The notes: a model not told the origin generated them from the letters alone. Shown: positions 33,022 through 43,606, counted from the first letter of the stretch. The stretch: 64,000 nucleotides of DNA from Clostridiales bacterium (GCA_016278505.1 JADQBQ010000021.1:62001-126000), one strand, 5' to 3'. Made by a program: numbers and translations.

Positions 33022-34152
33022 TTACAAATATTTACGAGGATTTACCGGCTGACCGTTTTCACGCACTTCTAAGTGCATATGGGGTCCAGTGGACCAGCCA
33101 GTACTACCTACTTTGCCGACAGTTTGACCCGCTGTGACCCACTCACCGTTATTGACAAGTTGAGCGGAAAGGTGGGGGTAAAGTGTTGTCAAGCTGCCAC
33201 CATGGTCAATCATTACTACCTTACCATAACCTTTCATAGTGGTAACGCTGATTACTCTGCCACTTTGGACAGCTACTACCGTCGCCCCCCATGGCGCTGC
33301 TATATCCATACCCGTATGTAGTTTCCTAACCTTTAAAATAGGATGTACGCGATATCCAAAGGGTGATGTAATACTGGTATACCCAGGAGTGGGCCAAAGA
33401 AACTCTCCTGATACTCGGGGCATATTCCCCCCGTTTTGCCGGGCCATACGCTGTACAATTGATTCTTCCTCTTCCTCTAACCAGCTTAATTCAGCCTGAA
33501 GACGATTCATGTCGCTCCGGGCAGAGTTTAGCAGTTGAAGCCTAGCTCTACTTCGAGATGCCAATTCACTTTGGACAGTTCTCTGACGCTGCAGCATGGC
33601 AGCAATACTATCACGTTTTTCCTCCAGATTTTTCTTTTTGCCCTCCAGCTCATCCCGCTGCTTCTGAATCTCGTCAATAAGCTCTGCATCCTGTTCAACG
33701 ATTCGTTTCACCATTTCATATCTGTTCAAAAAATCGCTGAAGTCTTCAGATGCTAGCAGAACCTCCAAATAACTTACCGGTCCGTTCTCATACATAGCCC
33801 GAACCCTTTTGCGAAGTATCTTATCATTTCTATCAAGCTCAGCCTCGCTTTTTTGCAATTCTTTTTCTGTAACACGCAAGGCAACCAGTGCTTTATCCAT
33901 GCGAGCACTAAGTTCCGTTATTTCCCGTCCTTTTTGGTTAATAACTTTATTTATAGCCGCAATCTGGGCCGTATAACCGCTTACGGTTTCCTCTTGCCGG
34001 TCAATGTCCTGACGCTTTTGGTCGAGTTCACTGCGTTTTTGTTGCAATAGCTCGTCCAGGTTATCGCCGTACGCTAATTCCCAGGTACCACCCATAATTA
34101 AAAAGACCAGCCCCAGGATGAAAATATTCTTTATCAAACGGTAGACCAACAT
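33022..34152 (-). CDS. M23 family murein hydrolase with coiled coil (EnvC/PcsB-like)
   Basis: 376-residue exported protein next to ftsX. An N-terminal hydrophobic segment (about 8-22) is a signal peptide or anchor. A long coiled coil (about 30-245, rich in [16 protein letters not shown]-like heptads) follows, then a LytM/M23 zinc endopeptidase domain (about 255-376). The zinc ligand motif [11 protein letters not shown] is near residue 280 and the HMHLEVREN motif near 358. Such proteins cut or activate cutting of septal peptidoglycan under control of FtsEX. ATG 34152, 21 bases after ftsX. Convergent with hypD, 25 bases between stops. Confidence 0.9.
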
Positions 34153-35470: not shown

Positions 35471-35561
35471 TAATCTTAACAATTTCGTTATATATACGAA
35501 ATTGTTTTGTAATTTGGAGGTCTTAAAATAATGATTAATACCTAGGATTATTTTTCCTAGG
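35471..35561 (+). repeat. Intergenic repeat, copy A
   Basis: About 91 bases matching copy B at 41181-41271 at roughly 70 percent by eye, including GTTTTGTAA-TTGGAGGT-TTAAAATAAT and GGATTATTTTTCCT. This copy has two hairpins: CAATTTCGT/ACGAAATTG (35480-35504) and ACCTAGG/CCTAGGT just after. The GGAGG looks like a ribosome site but leads only to a 4-codon frame (ATG ATT AAT ACC TAG). It ends about 80 bases before the penicillin-binding protein. Confidence 0.7.
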
Positions 35562-35639: not shown

Positions 35640-37337
35640 GTGCAGAAACAAAACAATCCGTCGCCCAGGAGAATTGCTTGGGTTTTCTTAATATTTTGCT
35701 TGGCTTTCACATTACTAATTGGTCATTTGTTCTGGATACAGCTTATTCAAGGAAGGGATTGGCAGCAAAAAGCATCTCAAATGCGCACGAAAAGCAAAGT
35801 TCTAACATCACGCCGCGGTCTAATAATGGACCGTAATGGAAACAAGCTGGCCACAAATATTAAGGTGAACTCTATTTATGCCGATCCTCATATGATTGAC
35901 AGTACTGAACAAGCAGTCAAAGATTTAAGCTTAATACTTGGGGTGAATAAGAAAGAGTTATATGAAAAATTAAATAAGAATACATCTTTTGTTTGGATTA
36001 AGCGCAAAGTTGACTATGAAACATCCCAAAAGATCAGAGAATTACAGATTAAAGGTCTGGGGTTTATTGAGGAAAATAAACGTCTGTACCCAGATGGGCA
36101 AACAGCCTCTCATGTGCTGGGTTTTACCGGCATGGACTACCATGGATTGCAAGGAATCGAAAAGAGTTTAGATGAGGAACTCCAGGGAGAGGCCGGTGAC
36201 ATGTTAGCCGAATACGGGGCAAAAGGGAGAAAGATACCGGGAAGTACGTCCCGGTACAAGGAACCGGTCCCGGGAAATAACATTGTACTTACTTTGGATA
36301 AGCATATACAGTACTTTGTTGAACGAGAACTAAACAGCATTGTCAAGACTTACAATCCCAAACTAGCAGTGGCACTGGTCATGGATCCTAAAACAGGCGA
36401 AATACTGGCAATGGGGAATCAACCTACATTTAATCCTAATCGATGGAATGATTCGCCGGAAGAGATTTGGGACAATAATCCTGCTATATGGTACAACTAT
36501 GAACCTGGCTCCATTTTTAAAATCATTACGGCCGCCGCAGCGTTAGAAGAAGGATCGGCTAACTTAGAAAGCAAATTTTTTGATCCTGGTTATGTAGACG
36601 TGGATGGTCAAAAAATTAAATCCTGGAAACAAGGAGGACACGGCAGTCAAACCTTCCTAGAAATAATGCTTAACTCATGCAATCCAGGGTTTGTGAAAGT
36701 TGGTTTAACTCTTGGTAGAGAACGCTTTTATAAGTATATTGAAGGTTTTGGTTTTGGAAATGTTACTGGGGTTAAGTTGCCGGGGGAGGCTGGCGGAATA
36801 TTGATTCCTGAAAGTCAGGCCACCGACTTAAATATCGCTACCCAGGCTATAGGCCAATCCATAGCTGTAACTCCACTTCAGCTCATTAAAGCGGTTTCAG
36901 CAGTGGCAAATGGTGGAAAGCTCATGAAACCTCAGCTGGTTAAAAAGATTGTTACTTCGAGTGGGGAAATAATTCACGAATATCAACCAAAGGTAGAACG
37001 CCAGGTGATATCAGCCAAAACGTCTCAGGAAATGAGAAGTATTTTGGAAAAAGTTGTGACTGACGGAACAGGGAAGCAAGCTTATTTGGATGGGTACAGG
37101 GTAGCCGGGAAAACTGGAACAGCCGAAGTAGCGGGGGACAATGGCTATGTAAATGGGCAATACATATCTTCATTTGTAGGCTTTGCACCGGCCAATAACC
37201 CCCGCGTTACCATTCTTATCATGATAGCGGAACCTAAAGGTGATACATACCACGGCGGTCTGATTGCAGCCCCCTCCTTTAAAGCCATAGCTAGTGATAC
37301 TTTAAGATACTTAAAGATACATAGAAATTATAATTGA
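35640..37337 (+). CDS. Penicillin-binding protein (FtsI/SpoVD-type transpeptidase)
   Basis: 565-residue class B penicillin-binding protein that cross-links peptidoglycan outside the membrane. One N-terminal membrane helix (about 12-35), a dimerisation domain (60-210), then the transpeptidase. The catalytic motifs are SIFK (Ser291-Lys294), SCN (346-348) and KTG (491-493). No C-terminal PASTA domain, so it is closer to FtsI than to full SpoVD. Starts at GTG 35640 with GAGGG about 12 bases upstream. It is not in the usual mraZ-mraW-fts cluster but beside a broken ftsE and a copper module, suggesting an extra, acquired or specialised copy. Confidence 0.9.
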   Translation: MQKQNNPSPRRIAWVFLIFCLAFTLLIGHLFWIQLIQGRDWQQKASQMRTKSKVLTSRRGLIMDRNGNKLATNIKVNSIYADPHMIDSTEQAVKDLSLILGVNKKELYEKLNKNTSFVWIKRKVDYETSQKIRELQIKGLGFIEENKRLYPDGQTASHVLGFTGMDYHGLQGIEKSLDEELQGEAGDMLAEYGAKGRKIPGSTSRYKEPVPGNNIVLTLDKHIQYFVERELNSIVKTYNPKLAVALVMDPKTGEILAMGNQPTFNPNRWNDSPEEIWDNNPAIWYNYEPGSIFKIITAAAALEEGSANLESKFFDPGYVDVDGQKIKSWKQGGHGSQTFLEIMLNSCNPGFVKVGLTLGRERFYKYIEGFGFGNVTGVKLPGEAGGILIPESQATDLNIATQAIGQSIAVTPLQLIKAVSAVANGGKLMKPQLVKKIVTSSGEIIHEYQPKVERQVISAKTSQEMRSILEKVVTDGTGKQAYLDGYRVAGKTGTAEVAGDNGYVNGQYISSFVGFAPANNPRVTILIMIAEPKGDTYHGGLIAAPSFKAIASDTLRYLKIHRNYN

Positions 37338-37498
37338 TTGTTTTCAATATGTTAAATATTTGTAATGATTCTGTTTTTATAATGTAACTTTAGTTCTATA
37401 TAATCGGCCTAGAGAGTCAATAATAACTGAGGAAAAGGAGGAGTGAGTACTAAAGTCATATTTAATTTTTATCTATCATAATCCAAGGAGGTATGAAC

Positions 37499-37927
37499 AT
37501 GAAGGGTAAAGTATGGGTATTACTTTTGGGAGTGTCGCTTGTTGCAGCACTCATTGCACCAACCGCTTTTGCATCTTGGCAAAGTGCACAATTGGGTACA
37601 CCTGATTATCAGGACATGATGAATAATAACAACCAGGACATAATGGTTAGACACGTAGATGTTGAAACAAATGATACTGCAGAAGAAACTAACCAACAAT
37701 CTGACCCCGTAGATGGGGCTAAAAATAATTATTCTCCCCCACAAACACCGACAAATGATCAATTCACCCAAAATCAAGCACAAGCTTGGCAAGATCATTA
37801 TTCATACATGAATAACATGATGGGCGGGATGATGGGTGGCTACGGATCTGGTAACGGCAGTTACGGAATGATGGGCGGCTATGGATCTGGCAACGGCGGC
37901 TACGGAATGAATGGATCATCATATTAA
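37499..37927 (+). CDS. Exported Met/Gly/Asn-rich protein, 142 aa
   Basis: Signal peptide at the N terminus (MKGKVWVLLLGVSLVAALIAP, cleavage probably after AFA). The mature part is polar and Asn/Gln-rich, with the tail YMNNMMGGMMGGYGSGNG followed by a second MMGGYGSG repeat. Two ATGs compete; the second (37499) is 7 bases from AAGGAGG and is chosen. No known family recognised. Methionine clusters of this kind bind Cu(I) in several unrelated proteins. The genes that follow are csoR and copA, and a second Met-rich exported protein lies after copA, so a role in copper handling outside the cell is plausible but inferred. Confidence 0.75.
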   Translation: MKGKVWVLLLGVSLVAALIAPTAFASWQSAQLGTPDYQDMMNNNNQDIMVRHVDVETNDTAEETNQQSDPVDGAKNNYSPPQTPTNDQFTQNQAQAWQDHYSYMNNMMGGMMGGYGSGNGSYGMMGGYGSGNGGYGMNGSSY

Positions 37928-37981
37928 AAGAATAAAACAGGATATATAGACTTCACAAGCAGCGTAAACCGGTCAACTCCT

Positions 37982-38012
37982 AAATAAGATCCCGTTTAAC
38001 GGGATCTTATTT
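37982..38012 (+). terminator. Terminator after the Met-rich protein gene
   Basis: 13-bp perfect stem AAATAAGATCCCG / CGGGATCTTATTT with a 5-base loop, followed by TATATC. It separates this gene from the csoR-copA operon. Confidence 0.85.
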
Positions 38013-38183
38013 TATATCATAAAACTATAATGTAACACTTACAACTTAATGGATATGCATTGAACATTTCTTTACGAAAAACCTGTTATTTTTAAATCAT
38101 AACAGCGTTATCAACCTTCTACATATTTTACCTTAAAGTGTAAATAGCTCACGACAAATACTGATATTTTTTTCTTTAAGGTG

Positions 38184-38210
38184 TTGACAATTAAACAGCG
38201 ATAATATAAA
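38184..38210 (+). promoter_or_regulatory. Candidate sigma-A promoter of csoR-copA
   Basis: -35 TTGACA (38184-38189) and -10 TATAAA (38205-38210) with a short 15-base spacer. Short or off-length spacing is common in metal-regulated promoters. The CsoR-type palindrome begins 17 bases downstream. Confidence 0.5.
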
Positions 38211-38226
38211 GTTACTTAATAATACT

Positions 38227-38244
38227 ATACCCCCTGTAGGGTAT
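38227..38244. promoter_or_regulatory. CsoR-type operator
   Basis: ATACCCCCTGTAGGGTAT, inverted repeat ATACCC / GGGTAT with a 6-base centre. It matches the G/C-tract palindromes bound by CsoR repressors, directly ahead of the csoR start. Expected to be bound without copper and released when Cu(I) loads CsoR. Confidence 0.8.
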
Positions 38245-38267
38245 GCAAAGTTAAAGGCGGTTATCTG

Positions 38268-38531
38268 ATGCAAGGGAACAAAAAAGAGCTTATGGACAGG
38301 CTTAAGAGAGTAGAGGGGCAAATTCGAGGCATTCAAAAAATGATAGAGGAAGACCGTTATTGTATTGATGTTTTATACCAGGTCAGTGCCAGCCGTGCAG
38401 CCTTGAAAAAGTTAGGGATGCAAATGGTGAGAAATCATACCCGGGCATGTGTTGCCAATGCAATCAGACAGGAACACGGCGATGAAGCAATTGACGAATT
38501 AATGCAGTTTTTGGACAAGTTTGTAGACTGA
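38268..38531 (+). CDS. csoR: Copper-sensing transcriptional repressor CsoR
   Basis: 87-residue all-helical DUF156 repressor. The Cu(I) ligand set Cys-His-Cys is present at C32 (RYCIDVL), H57 and C61 (NHTRAC), which separates CsoR from nickel-sensing RcnR and formaldehyde-sensing FrmR. The N terminus LMDRLKRVEGQIRGIQKMIEE is the family signature. It represses the operon it leads, with copA starting 21 bases after its stop. ATG 38268 has a weak ribosome site (AAAGGCGG about 10 bases before). Confidence 0.93.
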   Translation: MQGNKKELMDRLKRVEGQIRGIQKMIEEDRYCIDVLYQVSASRAALKKLGMQMVRNHTRACVANAIRQEHGDEAIDELMQFLDKFVD

Positions 38532-38552
38532 CATTCAAAGGGAGTTGGTAGA

Positions 38553-40973
38553 ATGGCAACGGAAGGTACGTTAAAAAAAGCTGAGTTTAAAGTAACCGGT
38601 ATGAGCTGTGCTGCCTGCGCAGCCCGGATAGAGAAAAACTTAGCCGGGGAGAAGGGCGTGCATGACGCCACGGTTAACTTTGCCACCAGTAAGGCTACCG
38701 TAAATTATGACTCTGGCCAAGTTGAGCCTGAATACCTTTCAGAAGTTATTAAACAGGTGGGTTTCGGAGTGGTAACGGAAAATGTAGAACTGCGTATTAC
38801 CGGGATGACTTGTGCAGCGTGCTCTGCAAGGGTGGAGAAAAAGTTGAATTCCCTCCCCGGAGTGCAGGCTAGTGTCAACATAGCCACGGAAAAGGCAGTG
38901 GCGGACTATAACCCGGGCCTTACCGATCTGGGGGAAATAAAAAAGGCCATAGTTGGCATCGGCTACGGGGCGGAAGTAGCTGACACCGGGGGCGCGGATG
39001 CTGAAAAAGAAGCACGGGAAAAGGAAATCCGCCGTTTCAAAAACCTGTTCGTATTCTCAGCGGTACTTTCCTTACCGCTGTTGGCATATATGTTTGGCAT
39101 GCTGTTCAAACTTAACTTGCCGGATATTGTTTATAATCATTACTTCCAGTTAATCCTTGCTACCCCTATCCAATTTATTGCGGGATGGCACTTTTACCGG
39201 GACGCTTACCTGGTCTTAAAAAATAAGGGAGCGAATATGTCTGTGCTGGTGGTCCTCGGTACCACCGCGGCCTACCTATATAGTGTAGTGGTGACCTTTT
39301 GGGGTGCATCTATCGGCGCAGACGAAGTATACTTTGAAACCAGTGCCCTGATCATTACACTTATATTACTGGGTCGCTTACTGGAAGCAGTGGCCAAGGG
39401 GAAAACTTCCGAGGCCATTAAAAAATTAATGGGCCTGCAGGCCAAAACAGCCCGCGTAATCAGGGACGGGCAGGAAATGGAAATCCCGGTTGAACAGGTA
39501 ATGGTAGATGATATTATTGCTGTACGGCCCGGAGAAAAACTTCCCGTGGACGGTGAAATAGTCGAAGGTTATTCCAGTGTTGATGAGTCCATGCTTACCG
39601 GTGAAAGCCTGCCGGTGGATAAAAATGTGGGAGACACCGTGATCGGTGCCACTATCAATAAACTGGGAACCTTTAAGTTTAAAGCCACCAAAGTAGGCAA
39701 GGATACAGCTCTGGCGCAAATTGTACGTATAGTGGAGGACGCACAAGGTTCCAAGGCCCCTATTCAGCGCATGGCGGATATTATTTCCGGTTATTTTGTC
39801 CCGGTGGTAGTTGGCATTTCACTGATTACCTTCGCCTTATGGTATTTCTTCGGCGACCCCGGCAACTTTACATGGGCCCTCATCAATTTCACCGCAGTAT
39901 TGGTAATCGCCTGCCCGTGCGCCCTGGGCTTAGCCACACCCACATCAATTATGGTGGGAACAGGACGGGGAGCAGAAAACGGCATTTTGATCAAGGGTGG
40001 TGAATTCCTGGAGCGGGCGCAGAAGATCAATGCCCTGGTATTGGACAAGACGGGTACCATCACCCGGGGTGCGCCGGCTCTGACCGATTTGCTCGTATTG
40101 GATTCAGTAGCAGGAAGCGAGAAAGAATTGCTGGCCCTAGCAGGCGGAGCAGAAAAGGGCTCGGAACACCCTCTGGCCCAGGCCATAGTGCAAAAGGCTG
40201 AAGAAGAAGGCCTGGAATTACCGGTGCCACATCAATTCGAAGCTATTCCAGGACATGGTGTGCTGGCCCAAATGAAAGACCACAAATTATTGCTGGGTAC
40301 TCGCAAGTTAATGAGTGAAAATGATGTGGAATGGGAGAGCCATGAGAAAAAGATTGAAAAACTGGAACGTGAAGGAAAGACCGTAATGATCATGGCGGCA
40401 GCCGGAAAGGCTGTGGCCTTGCTAGGAGTTGCCGATACAATTAAGGATAACTCAACAGAAGCTATACATGCCCTTAAAGAAATGGGTATAGAGGTTTGGA
40501 TGATTACTGGTGATAACAAGCGTACCGCAGATGCCATTGCCGTCCAGGTGGGCATTGAGAATGTACTTGCCGAAGTACTGCCCGAAGATAAAGCCAGAGA
40601 AGTACAAAAGTTACAGGAGAGCGGCAAGGTGACCGGCATGGTGGGGGACGGCATCAACGATGCCCCGGCCCTGGCTACTGCTGAGGTGGGATTTGCAGTG
40701 GGTACCGGAACTGATGTGGCCATGGAAGCTGCAGATATTACTTTGATGAGCGGGGACCTGAGAGGAGTCGTTAACAGCATCAGGTTAAGTCGGGCCACCA
40801 TGCGTAACATCAAACAAAACCTGTTTTGGGCCCTTATTTACAATACAGTGGGCGTACCGGTAGCTGCCTTAGGCTTTTTAAATCCGGTCCTTGCCGGTGC
40901 TGCCATGGCGTTCAGTTCCGTTTCCGTGGTAACCAATGCATTACGTTTAAAGAGAGTTAAACTGAAAAGCTAG
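38553..40973 (+). CDS. copA: Copper-exporting P1B-type ATPase CopA
   Basis: 806-residue Cu(I) efflux ATPase. Two N-terminal heavy-metal-associated domains with CxxC at C19/C22 (GMSCAAC) and C87/C90 (GMTCAAC). Eight predicted membrane helices, the ion-path motif CPC (454-456), phosphorylation motif DKTGT (498-502), actuator TGES, nucleotide-binding HP in SEHPLAQA and hinge [12 protein letters not shown]. The layout is typical of Gram-positive CopA. It lies behind csoR in one operon. AGGGAG precedes the ATG. There is no separate CopZ chaperone gene. Confidence 0.96.
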
Positions 40974-41004
40974 TAGATATAAATAAGCTAAGGAGGTGAT
41001 AATT

Positions 41005-41079
41005 ATGATGAGGAAGCGTTTTATGCTTCGCCGCGTGGCAAACTGCGACGGTGGACACCGAATAAAGTCCCGGGCATGA
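41005..41079 (+). CDS. Possible 24-residue basic peptide after copA
   Basis: ATG 41005 behind a near-perfect ribosome site (AAGGAGGTGAT, spacing 6). The frame encodes MMRKRFMLRRVANCDGGHRI and four more residues, ending TGA 41077-41079. Strongly basic, with one Cys and one His. It falls between copA and the operon terminator. The strong initiation signal is the main support; the peptide matches nothing I know. It could be a small protein or a translation-dependent regulator. Confidence 0.5.
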   Translation: MMRKRFMLRRVANCDGGHRIKSRA

Positions 41080-41105
41080 CACAAAACTGCCTATAATATA
41101 CACTG

Positions 41106-41139
41106 AAGGGCCGTGTGGATATTAATCTGCACGGCCCTT
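41106..41139 (+). terminator. Terminator of the csoR-copA operon
   Basis: AAGGGCCGTG / CACGGCCCTT, 10-bp stem with a 14-base loop, then TATTTAAA. Confidence 0.8.
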
Positions 41140-41180
41140 TATTTAAACACTTGATAACCCATACATAGAATTCAATGTAT

Positions 41181-41271
41181 AATCTTTATATTTTTGTTAT
41201 GAATACGAGATCGTTTTGTAAATTGGAGGTTTTAAAATAATAATTGACGCTTGGATTATTTTTCCTTGGGG
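41181..41271 (+). repeat. Intergenic repeat, copy B
   Basis: Second copy of the element at 35471-35561. Shared blocks are GTTTTGTAA-TTGGAGG, TTAAAATAAT and GGATTATTTTTCCT. The hairpin arms have diverged in this copy, and the 4-codon ATG has become ATA, so it does not encode a conserved peptide. It ends about 80 bases before the second Met-rich gene, the same distance as copy A to its gene. Confidence 0.7.
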
Positions 41272-41353
41272 GGAGGGATAGCTCTGGAATAACTTTATCA
41301 TATTAACCCAAGCATGGTTTGACATTCATTATAATTAAACGGGGGTGTAAGTT

Positions 41354-41890
41354 GTGGGTAAGAATAAAACATTCGTGCTGCTTTTTGCATTTGTCCTTCT
41401 ATTTTCTTTAGTAGGTATAGCAAATGCTGCTGAAATTGACACGGACCAAATGAAAATGAACAATTCCGCCGCAGTTTCAGAAACTAATGATGAACAAGCA
41501 GGGATGATGGACGATAGGGACGGAAATAGCACAGTAGACGGCAATGGCAATATGATGAACAGTGAGAATGAAATTGATACAACTGACGAAGAAAACAGTG
41601 ATATGATAGGCAATGAAGATACCACAGTGGACATGAAAAATGACAACATGATGGACAGCGGAAAAGACGATATGATGAACAACGAAGATACGAACGATTC
41701 AATTGACGGAAACAACAGAGATGATGAGAATGACAGGGTGGACAGGGAAGAAAATAATGATCAAATTAGAGACTTCCCCGGATATAGAATGGTCCCTTAT
41801 AACGCCAACAACTCATATTTCAACTGTTCTTGGAATAACCGCCCCCAAAGATATAACGGTATGATGGGAATGATGGGTGGTTACAGATAG
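41354..41890 (+). CDS. Exported Met/Asp/Asn-rich protein, 178 aa
   Basis: Begins at GTG 41354 with GGGGGTG about 8 bases upstream. The signal peptide is about 1-25 (FVLLFAFVLLFSLVGIANA, cleavage after NAA). The mature protein is extremely acidic and low-complexity, built of repeated blocks such as DGNGNMMNSENE, NDNMMDSGKDDMMNNED and DRVDREENNDQ. It ends in RYNGMMGMMGGYR, sharing the MMGG-Y tail with the protein at 37499. Paired methionines recur throughout. No known family. Likely a secreted or wall-associated metal-binding protein given the copper operon next door; the acidic blocks could equally bind calcium. Confidence 0.75.
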   Translation: MGKNKTFVLLFAFVLLFSLVGIANAAEIDTDQMKMNNSAAVSETNDEQAGMMDDRDGNSTVDGNGNMMNSENEIDTTDEENSDMIGNEDTTVDMKNDNMMDSGKDDMMNNEDTNDSIDGNNRDDENDRVDREENNDQIRDFPGYRMVPYNANNSYFNCSWNNRPQRYNGMMGMMGGYR

Positions 41891-41956: not shown

Positions 41957-43606
41957 TTAAATAAGCATTGGCACTACTACAAACAGTAGCGCTGCCGCCG
42001 CTCCGGCAGTCAAATTATACGGTGTCATAGCACGAACATAACTCATGTGTTCCGCCTCGGCTACACCTGACGACATGGCAGTCATGCCTGACAGGGGAGA
42101 AGTTACATCTCCAAAAGTTCCACCCGAAAACACAGCTGCCGCGGCGAGAGGAATAGAAGCACCCGAAGCGGCGGCCAGGGGAATGGCAAGAGGCATCATA
42201 AGGGCCCAAGATCCCCAGGAAGAACCGATAAAGTACGTCACCGCTGCCGTGATTACAAATGCTGCCGCCGGTACCCAAACAGCGGGAAGGGTGGCCCCCA
42301 GAGTGGTTTCAATTAACTTTGGCAGACCCAGATCGCGTGAAACCGTTGCAATTGGCCAGGCCACCACAAGAATTACAATGGTGACCATTAATTTATTACC
42401 ACCCTTTATAAACCCGTTAGTGAGGTCTTTAAGTGATAACCGCTGCAGGAGATATAACAGAGCCGTTATCACCGTAGTCAAAAAGAGTGCTTGAAACATA
42501 GCACGCGATGCGTTGGCCTGAGAGAATATTTCCAAAAGGGTGTCTCCCTTGGCACGGCCGTCCAGCCAGACCATAAGGAAACTCAAGGGAATTAGGATTC
42601 CAATAGGTATTAGCAAATTCAAAGCCCGTGGAGGCAACTTACTTTTTATTTCCATGTCATGATCATGCTCCATGTTCACAGGGGCATTTGGTCCTTCTCC
42701 GTTGCTCTTTTTCATCTCGTTTTCATTGTGCTTCGAAGATGTCACATTAATATCTTTTCCAGCTGCCGTACCCATTTGATCCCGAGCTGTATCCAACCTT
42801 CGTGCTTCACCGGGTGTCAGATCTTCAGCCGCCTCGTGACCGAATGCAGGAACACCTCTAACACCGCGCACATTGTTTTTAATACCTTTCGGCGCCGGTT
42901 TATGCCTTTCTCCGTCTTCCAGAGCTGCTTTCTTGTCGGCTTCGGCCATCTCCCGGAATTGCCACGGGCTAAAAATTGACAAAAGAGCTGTCAAAATAGC
43001 GGTGAAGCTGAAAAAGTTAAAGGGTATAGTTTGCAAAAAAATGATGAAAGGTGAACCCGCAACCCCTGCAGATCTTAACCCCACAGCCAACACTCCCAGC
43101 ATATAACCCACATACGTAGTAGCAATGGGAATAAGACTGATCAATGGACTGGCAGTGTTATTCAGAGTAAAGGCAAGTCGCTCCGGAGAAACCTTAAACT
43201 CTTTAGCCAGGGGTTTAGTAACAGCCCCGGCTGCCACCACCCGAAAGCCGCAGTCTATAAAGGTTATAGGCGCCAGAGCCGCGACTGAGAGAAGTGCCCC
43301 ACGAGCGCTCTGAACTACACGCTCCATAAGATGCGTAAAGCCGCTTACTCCGCCCGCCAGTTGGATCATGGTTACCAGACCGCTAAACACGTAAAGGAAA
43401 AGCAGTACATCCAGGTTTCCCGTATCGGATAACATAGCCAATATATAGGAAATGGTCCCGGAAAGAGACGAAAGAAACCCCGGAGATTTTATAAATGCTC
43501 CCAACCAAAGGCCCGCCAGCAGCGAGGGAATTACCTGCCTGGTTATCATCGCCAAAAGGATGGCGAAAACGGAAGGTAAGATAGAGACCCAAAGCCCTAA
43601 TTCCAT
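41957..43606 (-). CDS. NhaC-type Na+/H+ antiporter family protein
   Basis: 549-residue polytopic membrane protein of the NhaC superfamily (Na+/H+ or organic-ion antiport). About 11-12 hydrophobic segments. Conserved text: TFIDCGFRVVAAGAVTKPLA, LNNTASPLISLIPIATTYVGY, SSWGSWALMMPLAIPLA, FSGGTFGDVTSPLSGMT. An unusual hydrophilic, charged insertion of about 110 residues (216-328) splits the two halves and contains a His/Asp-rich NMEHDHDMEI. ATG 43606 with GAGG 8 bases upstream. Transported ion not determined; amino acid antiporters also belong here. Confidence 0.85.
   Translation of the reverse strand: MELGLWVSILPSVFAILLAMITRQVIPSLLAGLWLGAFIKSPGFLSSLSGTISYILAMLSDTGNLDVLLFLYVFSGLVTMIQLAGGVSGFTHLMERVVQSARGALLSVAALAPITFIDCGFRVVAAGAVTKPLAKEFKVSPERLAFTLNNTASPLISLIPIATTYVGYMLGVLAVGLRSAGVAGSPFIIFLQTIPFNFFSFTAILTALLSIFSPWQFREMAEADKKAALEDGERHKPAPKGIKNNVRGVRGVPAFGHEAAEDLTPGEARRLDTARDQMGTAAGKDINVTSSKHNENEMKKSNGEGPNAPVNMEHDHDMEIKSKLPPRALNLLIPIGILIPLSFLMVWLDGRAKGDTLLEIFSQANASRAMFQALFLTTVITALLYLLQRLSLKDLTNGFIKGGNKLMVTIVILVVAWPIATVSRDLGLPKLIETTLGATLPAVWVPAAAFVITAAVTYFIGSSWGSWALMMPLAIPLAAASGASIPLAAAAVFSGGTFGDVTSPLSGMTAMSSGVAEAEHMSYVRAMTPYNLTAGAAAALLFVVVPMLI

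Follow-up and report, generated by a model that had tools for sequence, protein, structure and literature searches.

What do two small, exported, methionine-rich proteins do when their genes stand on either side of a copper-efflux operon, and do they belong to that operon? The question is raised by a 64,000-nucleotide stretch of DNA from a Clostridiales bacterium, a spore-forming anaerobe (GCA_016278505.1, JADQBQ010000021.1:62001-126000; hereafter the window), in which two such genes, here called P1 and P2, flank csoR and copA. To our knowledge, little has been described of how Gram-positive anaerobes deal with copper outside the membrane, and most known systems end at CsoR or CopY, CopZ and CopA. 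The original prediction for this locus was that the two proteins form an extracellular copper sink working with the efflux ATPase. Our analysis makes it probable that the Met-rich exported proteins P1 and P2 belong to a small copper-responsive two-component regulon, where they would serve as sinks or chaperones for Cu(I) in parallel with CsoR-CopA.

P1 and P2 carry export signals and paired methionines

P1 (37499..37927, plus strand; 142 amino acids), recognized from its open reading frame and from a family profile (A1), is rich in Met, Gly, Tyr and Asn. There are two candidate ATG start codons, at 37493 and 37499, and the AGGAGGT at 37486-37492 favors the second. A Lys-rich n-region and a hydrophobic core lead to an AxA cleavage site between AFA and SW, a lipobox is absent, and the mature protein of 117 residues holds 11 Met. 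The signal peptide is followed by a putatively disordered linker, a single predicted helix (QAQAWQDHYSYMNNMM) and the tail GSGNG-Y-MMGGY. The structure model has one long helix in the mature protein, residues 91-112, and low pLDDT elsewhere, which is compatible with disorder and says no more than that. P2 (41354..41890, plus strand; 178 amino acids), recognized from its reading frame and composition, is an acidic Asp/Asn/Met-rich protein that starts at a GTG codon (41354) and ends in GMMGMMGGYR. Its signal peptide is built like that of P1, from a Lys-rich n-region and hydrophobic core to an AxA site, here between ANA and AE, and a lipobox is again absent; its mature form of 153 residues contains 17 Met and 37 Asp/Glu. 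Both signal peptides are type-I-like.

The Met contents of P1 (9.6%) and P2 (11.5%) are the top two among the 49 non-overlapping open reading frames of at least 100 amino acids in the window, the median of which is 2.5%. The methionines are also paired: P1 has four Met-Met pairs against 0.9 in composition-preserving shuffles (P = 0.006), and P2 has six against 1.8 (P = 0.003). Terminator-like hairpins were read directly on the plus strand after P1 (AAGATCCCG-TTTAA-CGGGATCTT, 37986..38008), copA (41106..41139) and P2 (41920..41949); they were called by eye, and some fall outside the 3-8 loop range of the automated search. The signal peptides, paired methionines and MMGGY tails that the original prediction had ascribed to both proteins are therefore present, and its picture of two genes that flank csoR-copA and are terminated separately from it agrees with what we read.

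Neither protein gave a credible match in Pfam or NCBIfam. DUF305, the domain that with its HH motif is a trait of CopM, did not match P1 or P2 up to E = 1, nor did DUF2680 (PF10925) match P1 up to the same threshold. For P2, support from homologues is confined to the signal peptide and the body is an orphan. Homology of P2 to an exported, acidic, Met-containing P2-like paralogue in the same genome is not supported past the signal peptide, the 45% identity extending over residues 1-33 only. P2-like exported proteins occur in loci of the same kind in Desulfoscipio geothermicus and BRH_c8a. The window locus is itself flanked by genes for an M23 peptidase (33022-34152) and an NhaC-type antiporter (41957-43606). 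This pair recurs in BRH_c8a, where an exported protein next to NhaC has a signal peptide like that of P2.

The csoR-copA operon is ordinary and separate

The two genes between P1 and P2 are ordinary members of a CsoR-CopA system. The product of csoR (38268..38531, plus strand) matches PF02583 with 107 bits and has the ligand set of a Cu-sensing repressor, Cys32-His57-Cys61, in a spacing (25, 4) that we take to be that of Cu-type CsoR proteins. It is 83% identical to the copA-adjacent CsoR of D. geothermicus. The copA gene (38553..40973, plus strand) encodes a Cu(I) P1B-ATPase; its two HMA domains bear GMxCAAC, a CPC motif is present, and the score against TIGR01511 is 623 bits (cut-off 397). 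A CsoR-type operator, TACCCCCTGTAGGGTA, is present in the csoR promoter (38228..38243, plus strand). Since this is the sole exact match in the window, control of P1 and P2 by CsoR was rejected; both lie outside the csoR-copA transcription units and lack the operator. Between copA and its terminator we also noted a 24-codon open reading frame (MMRKRFMLRRVANCDGGHRIKSRA, 41005-41079, plus strand) with a perfect ribosome-binding site (AAGGAGGTGA). A regular-expression search for Shine-Dalgarno-led small reading frames after other copA genes returned only an unrelated one.

P1 belongs, in degenerate form, to a wider family

The host genome of 3.92 Mb holds four paralogues of P1, five copies in all, and the profile built from these five copies (A1) found relatives in 50 of 113 Desulfotomaculales genomes. 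P1 is itself one of the five sequences in that profile, so its membership needs independent support, which comes from a pairwise identity of 44-56% with the paralogue P1b. Carriers include D. geothermicus, Desulfotruncus alcoholivorax, D. arcticus, Desulforadius tongensis and Sporotomaculum syntrophicum. A collection scan with a tighter family alignment gave 16 loci; these belong to named species of the Desulfotomaculales type and to metagenome-assembled genomes (MAGs) labeled Bacillota, Peptococcaceae or Deltaproteobacteria, the last label belonging to two loci of one MAG.

A typical member consists of a signal peptide, the segment WFxQMFxWHxxWxDxAxxxGQITPEQAxAWxxHFxYMxxFHxxNG and an MMGG-rich tail. 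AlphaFold2 predicts a helical hairpin, with helices at pLDDT 80-88, over which Met36, His40, His64, Met68 and His72 are set at i, i+4 (i+8) spacing. The W, H, M and H positions are kept across diverged members. A fold search of the PDB with the family hairpin model, which is of modest confidence, returned nothing at E <= 0.001. P1 has the signal peptide, the QAxAW-x2-HF-x-YM helix and the MMGG-rich tail that define the family in profiles A1 and A3. The first helix, with QMFxWH, is absent from P1 and from P1b, its closest paralogue, and with it half of the proposed metal site is gone. Judged by these alignments, P1 is a degenerate family member that has lost its first helix, not an orphan.

The family bears a weak similarity to DUF2680 that suggests a distant relationship for its typical members: 9 of 24 members match PF10925 at E < 0.01 (best 8.3e-6), and one host paralogue (L004) scores 18.5 bits against a cut-off of 25. 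DUF2680 proteins are likewise exported and have a helical G-x-[IL]-T-x-E-Q segment like that of P1-family members. We take Bacillus subtilis YckD to be a member of DUF2680, and the Met-rich tail and His/Met ladders presumably lie outside the Pfam description. In the literature searched, no function is described for DUF2680, DUF2680-like proteins are scarcely named, and nothing was found that links YckD with copper. That neither protein belongs to a described family, as had been proposed, thus holds for P2 and fails for P1, with its four paralogues, relatives in half of the class and weakly DUF2680-like kin.

Two variants of the family deserve mention. A subgroup at five loci (L082, L086, L089, L093 and L100) has the tail NGYxCPGG and a conserved non-copper neighborhood (amidase, MBL-fold lipoprotein), and several of its genes still bear the promoter box described below. 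One MAG (MES5, genome G038; loci L065/L066) has four closely similar P1-family genes inside a 20-kb stretch; unrelated genes lie between them, and every one of the four has a box to itself.

P1 and P2 share a promoter box

Upstream of P1, at 37361..37404 (plus strand), three 11-bp repeats precede a -10 element, TGTAATGATTC-TGTTTTTATAA-TGTAACTTTAG-TTCTA-TATAAT, as promoter comparison revealed. Pattern search and promoter comparison placed an equivalent box, TGTTATGAATACGAGATCGTTTTGTAAATTGGAGGTTTTAAAAT, upstream of P2 (41195..41238, plus strand), and pattern search placed a third (35486..35529, plus strand) upstream of a SpoVD/PBP-type transpeptidase gene (35640..37337, plus strand), the latter assigned by reading its sequence and not by a family search. 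In the units of P1, P2 and the paralogues, TGTWA is followed by TGTAA exactly 22 bp on and by the -10 element 16 bp further. Tandem direct repeats of 11 bp next to the -10 element, the phoA geometry, are the arrangement of PhoB/OmpR-family activators, and the repeats here overlap the -35 region as in promoters of that type.

The box was first spotted by eye in a noisy listing of k-mers shared by promoters and was tested afterwards. With up to two mismatches, the 3.92-Mb genome has exactly six sites, those of P1, P2, PBP, P1b, SHOCT-P1d and P1d. Because the pattern was derived from the P1, P2, P1b and SHOCT-P1d promoters, what it adds independently is the sites at PBP and P1d and the lack of any others. 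With up to three mismatches there were 10 and 7 sites, against 4 and 4 for reversed-pattern controls. At this tolerance the box precedes, in relatives, 27 of the 46 family members with 300 bases of upstream DNA and 42 of 779 other reading frames (Fisher P = 5e-20; counts read from tables). A weight matrix scanned over 61 loci (0.9 Mb) gave about 130 sites, and none in shuffled DNA; its training set was P1-family, SHOCT and SigI promoters, which makes matches at these partly circular. The non-circular targets are copA in four genomes (G017, G018, G099 and G038), His/Met-rich exported proteins and, in two genomes, the response-regulator gene. In 16 further whole genomes the box gave 44 sites against 2 control matches, and those examined were mostly at P1-family, SHOCT, SigI or Met-rich loci.

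P1 and P2 belong together, since they share this regulatory box. Their separate boxes, with the CsoR operator confined to csoR, indicate that in this genome they are not co-regulated with csoR-copA.

Some further features of these promoters were observed. The PBP and P2 promoter regions are almost duplicates, alike at 68 of 101 bases, and in both an inverted repeat around GGATTATTTTTCC follows the box; it looks as if the promoter was duplicated inside the locus. The sigI gene, with rsgI following it, often bears the same box, which suggests a sigma-factor cascade. The two genes recur at these islands (for example L045:12014-13856).

Family members lie near copper genes more often than expected

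Of 80 family members, at least 10 have a TIGR01511 copper ATPase gene no more than 3 kb away, against 0.35 expected (Poisson P = 6e-12); two of these ten cases are in the host genome, which prompted the test, and eight stand without them. Seventy of the 80 are more than 3 kb from any such ATPase among the matches listed. Five of 18 genes for DUF326 proteins (Csp-like copper storage) are within 6.5 kb of a family member, with 0.18 expected (P = 1e-6), and this statistic, like that for the ATPase, ignores kinship among the genomes. Clustering of the neighbors within 6 kb returned P-type ATPases (14 loci in 12 genomes), response regulators (14 in 11), histidine kinases (14 in 11), SHOCT membrane proteins (12 in 9), DUF326 proteins (5 in 4), and SigI and RsgI. 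On one contig of D. geothermicus, about 14 kb hold genes for DUF326, a P2-like exported protein, the kinase, the regulator, a P1-family fragment, csoR and copA; a similar set in the host genome is split between the window locus and contig C48. A lack of association with copper genes in other species had been named beforehand as something that would count against the original prediction; the association was found, and the prediction survived this test. Taken together, the sequence comparisons partly support the copper reading and strengthen it well past adjacency.

One neighbor is of separate interest. Between P1 and P2 paralogues (L045:8472-8657, minus strand) lies a gene for a 61-residue membrane protein with a CCGGHDH...CC...HQHGKG tail, which looks like a small metal-binding protein.

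The neighboring kinases have a putative metal-sensing loop

Among the 22 aligned kinases labeled at these loci, the extracytoplasmic loop of 18 contains a Cys...His-His pair, mostly in the form C-x-G-M-G...(M-x-M)...HH (ECRGMGMDMSPGTDVDVFGHHG in the host genome). Cys, Met and His are soft-metal ligands, and nothing else hints as strongly as this motif that the kinases respond to copper or a metal like it, not to phosphate or wall damage. Two histidine kinases with this loop are encoded on contig C48 (L045:9728-11176 and L045:2046-3479) and apparently represent an undescribed group of metal-sensing kinases; one of them is convergent, not co-directional, with the adjoining response-regulator gene. 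Among curated families, kinase and regulator come closest to generic ones (WalK, PnpS, RpaB, YycF and PhoB), with all listed matches below cut-off. The CopS/CopR-type models also score below theirs, TIGR01386 at 179-215 bits (292.6) and TIGR01387 at 172-232 bits (279.2). From the position of the genes we infer that this regulator acts on the box.

Alternative explanations

A different account would place P1 and P2 in an envelope-stress regulon, where they protect wall or membrane with a logic like that of Spy and CpxP and are induced by wall damage through a WalRK- or PhoB-like system, the copper genes adjoining them since copper harms the envelope. Such a regulon would explain the box upstream of the SpoVD/PBP-type gene and of sigI, the M23 peptidases near several loci, the [IL]TxEQ motif of the helical hairpin, which recalls Spy/CpxP, and the affinity of kinase and regulator, below cut-off, for WalK/YycF-type models. 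It is at odds, however, with the conserved Cys/Met/His-His motif of the sensor, with the association with DUF326 and copper ATPase genes, and with a box that, by its position, directly governs copA and His/Met-rich proteins in relatives; nor did any of 24 family members match the LTXXQ or Metal_resist Pfam models at E < 0.01. We regard this account as unlikely.

The ligands could instead hold another soft metal (silver, mercury, cadmium or an arsenic-linked one) or iron or sulfide products, the copper ATPases then reflecting general metal islands. Met, Cys and His are not specific for copper, and some family members are near feoAB or ArsR genes, but the ATPases nearby fall under the Cu-type model TIGR01511, the genes csoR, copA and DUF326 are likewise of the copper type, and Met-rich motifs favor Cu(I) and Ag(I), which leaves this possibility very improbable. 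Hardly any credence attaches to a Pho regulon, in which the 11-bp TGTNA repeats would be PhoP/PhoB boxes and P1 and P2 phosphate-starvation exoproteins: the repeat unit and its position are as in PhoB-type promoters (half-site TGTCA(T/C), PMC3264566) and the kinase resembles PnpS/PhoR, below cut-off, but there are no phosphate genes among the six best genome sites, and the sites examined in the 16 further genomes mostly belong to the loci named above. That P1 and P2 are fortuitous low-complexity filler of the wall or exopolysaccharide kind, with no metal role, would suit their poorly conserved bodies and a P2 homology that ends with the signal peptide, but is scarcely tenable given the conserved W, H, M and H positions, the rare box common to both and the non-random genomic context.

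Discussion

In the copper-responsive regulon that we favor, a membrane histidine kinase with the conserved Cys-x-Gly-Met-Gly...His-His sensor loop would detect extracytoplasmic copper and activate a PhoB/OmpR-type regulator, which would bind the tandem 11-bp TGTNA repeats by the -10 element and turn on secretion of the Met-rich proteins. The typical hairpin, with its Met-x3-His and His-x3-Met-x3-His ladders and Met/Gly/Tyr tail, would hold Cu(I) outside the membrane; P1 would retain one helix and the tail, and P2 would be an acidic, mostly disordered sponge. Together, as an extracellular sink, they may keep free Cu(I) low where wall and membrane meet and offer protection there, cytosolic copper being left to the separately regulated CsoR-CopA. 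The weak points of this mechanism are that PBP and SigI in the regulon fit envelope stress too, that P1 has lost its first helix, and that regulator and box are connected by position.

Copper sinks of this sort, Met-rich, exported and controlled by a two-component system, are already known; the family and the regulon would be new. CopM of Synechocystis PCC 6803 (DUF305; 23 Met, 8 His) binds Cu(I), is partly extracellular and cuts copper accumulation (PMC4335983). With CopRS it offers an exported Met-rich protein under a copper two-component system, as we propose for P1 and P2, but differs in its DUF305 fold, an HME-RND efflux partner in place of CopA, a Gram-negative envelope and a single copMRS operon. 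SilE is a disordered metal sponge (PMC5008109), and SilE/PcoE resemble P1 and P2 in having a signal peptide, a Met/His-containing body, which in P1 and P2 may be disordered too, and a proposed uptake of Ag(I) or Cu(I) beside an efflux ATPase, but have other His/Met motifs and belong to proteobacterial sil/pco operons. The Pfam and NCBIfam results for P1 and P2 include no SilE/PcoE match, as far as these libraries model such proteins. By analogy, P1 and P2 would act like CopM or SilE, outside the family of CopM and probably outside that of SilE. On the regulatory side, CopRS of Corynebacterium glutamicum is a Gram-positive extracytoplasmic copper two-component system that controls secreted proteins and a P-type ATPase (PMC3140484), comparable with the control proposed here; it differs in its single site between divergent operons and in the multicopper oxidase CopO, and P1-family, SHOCT or SigI targets are not reported for it.

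More broadly, and with slightly less belief than doubt, we suggest an undescribed copper-and-envelope regulon of the Desulfotomaculales. Its Cys-x-Gly-Met-Gly...His-His kinase would act through a PhoB-like regulator, independently of CsoR-CopA, on new secreted Cu(I)-binding hairpins (M-x3-H/H-x3-M-x3-H ladders, MMGG tail), disordered Met-rich sponges, SHOCT membrane proteins, SigI/RsgI and a cell-wall transpeptidase. If this is true, DUF2680-like proteins gain a role. The regulon box, the metal-ligand motif of the kinase and the secreted Met/His hairpin family make the system directly testable, and the box at the PBP gene and at sigI suggests that copper defense and wall maintenance are coupled.
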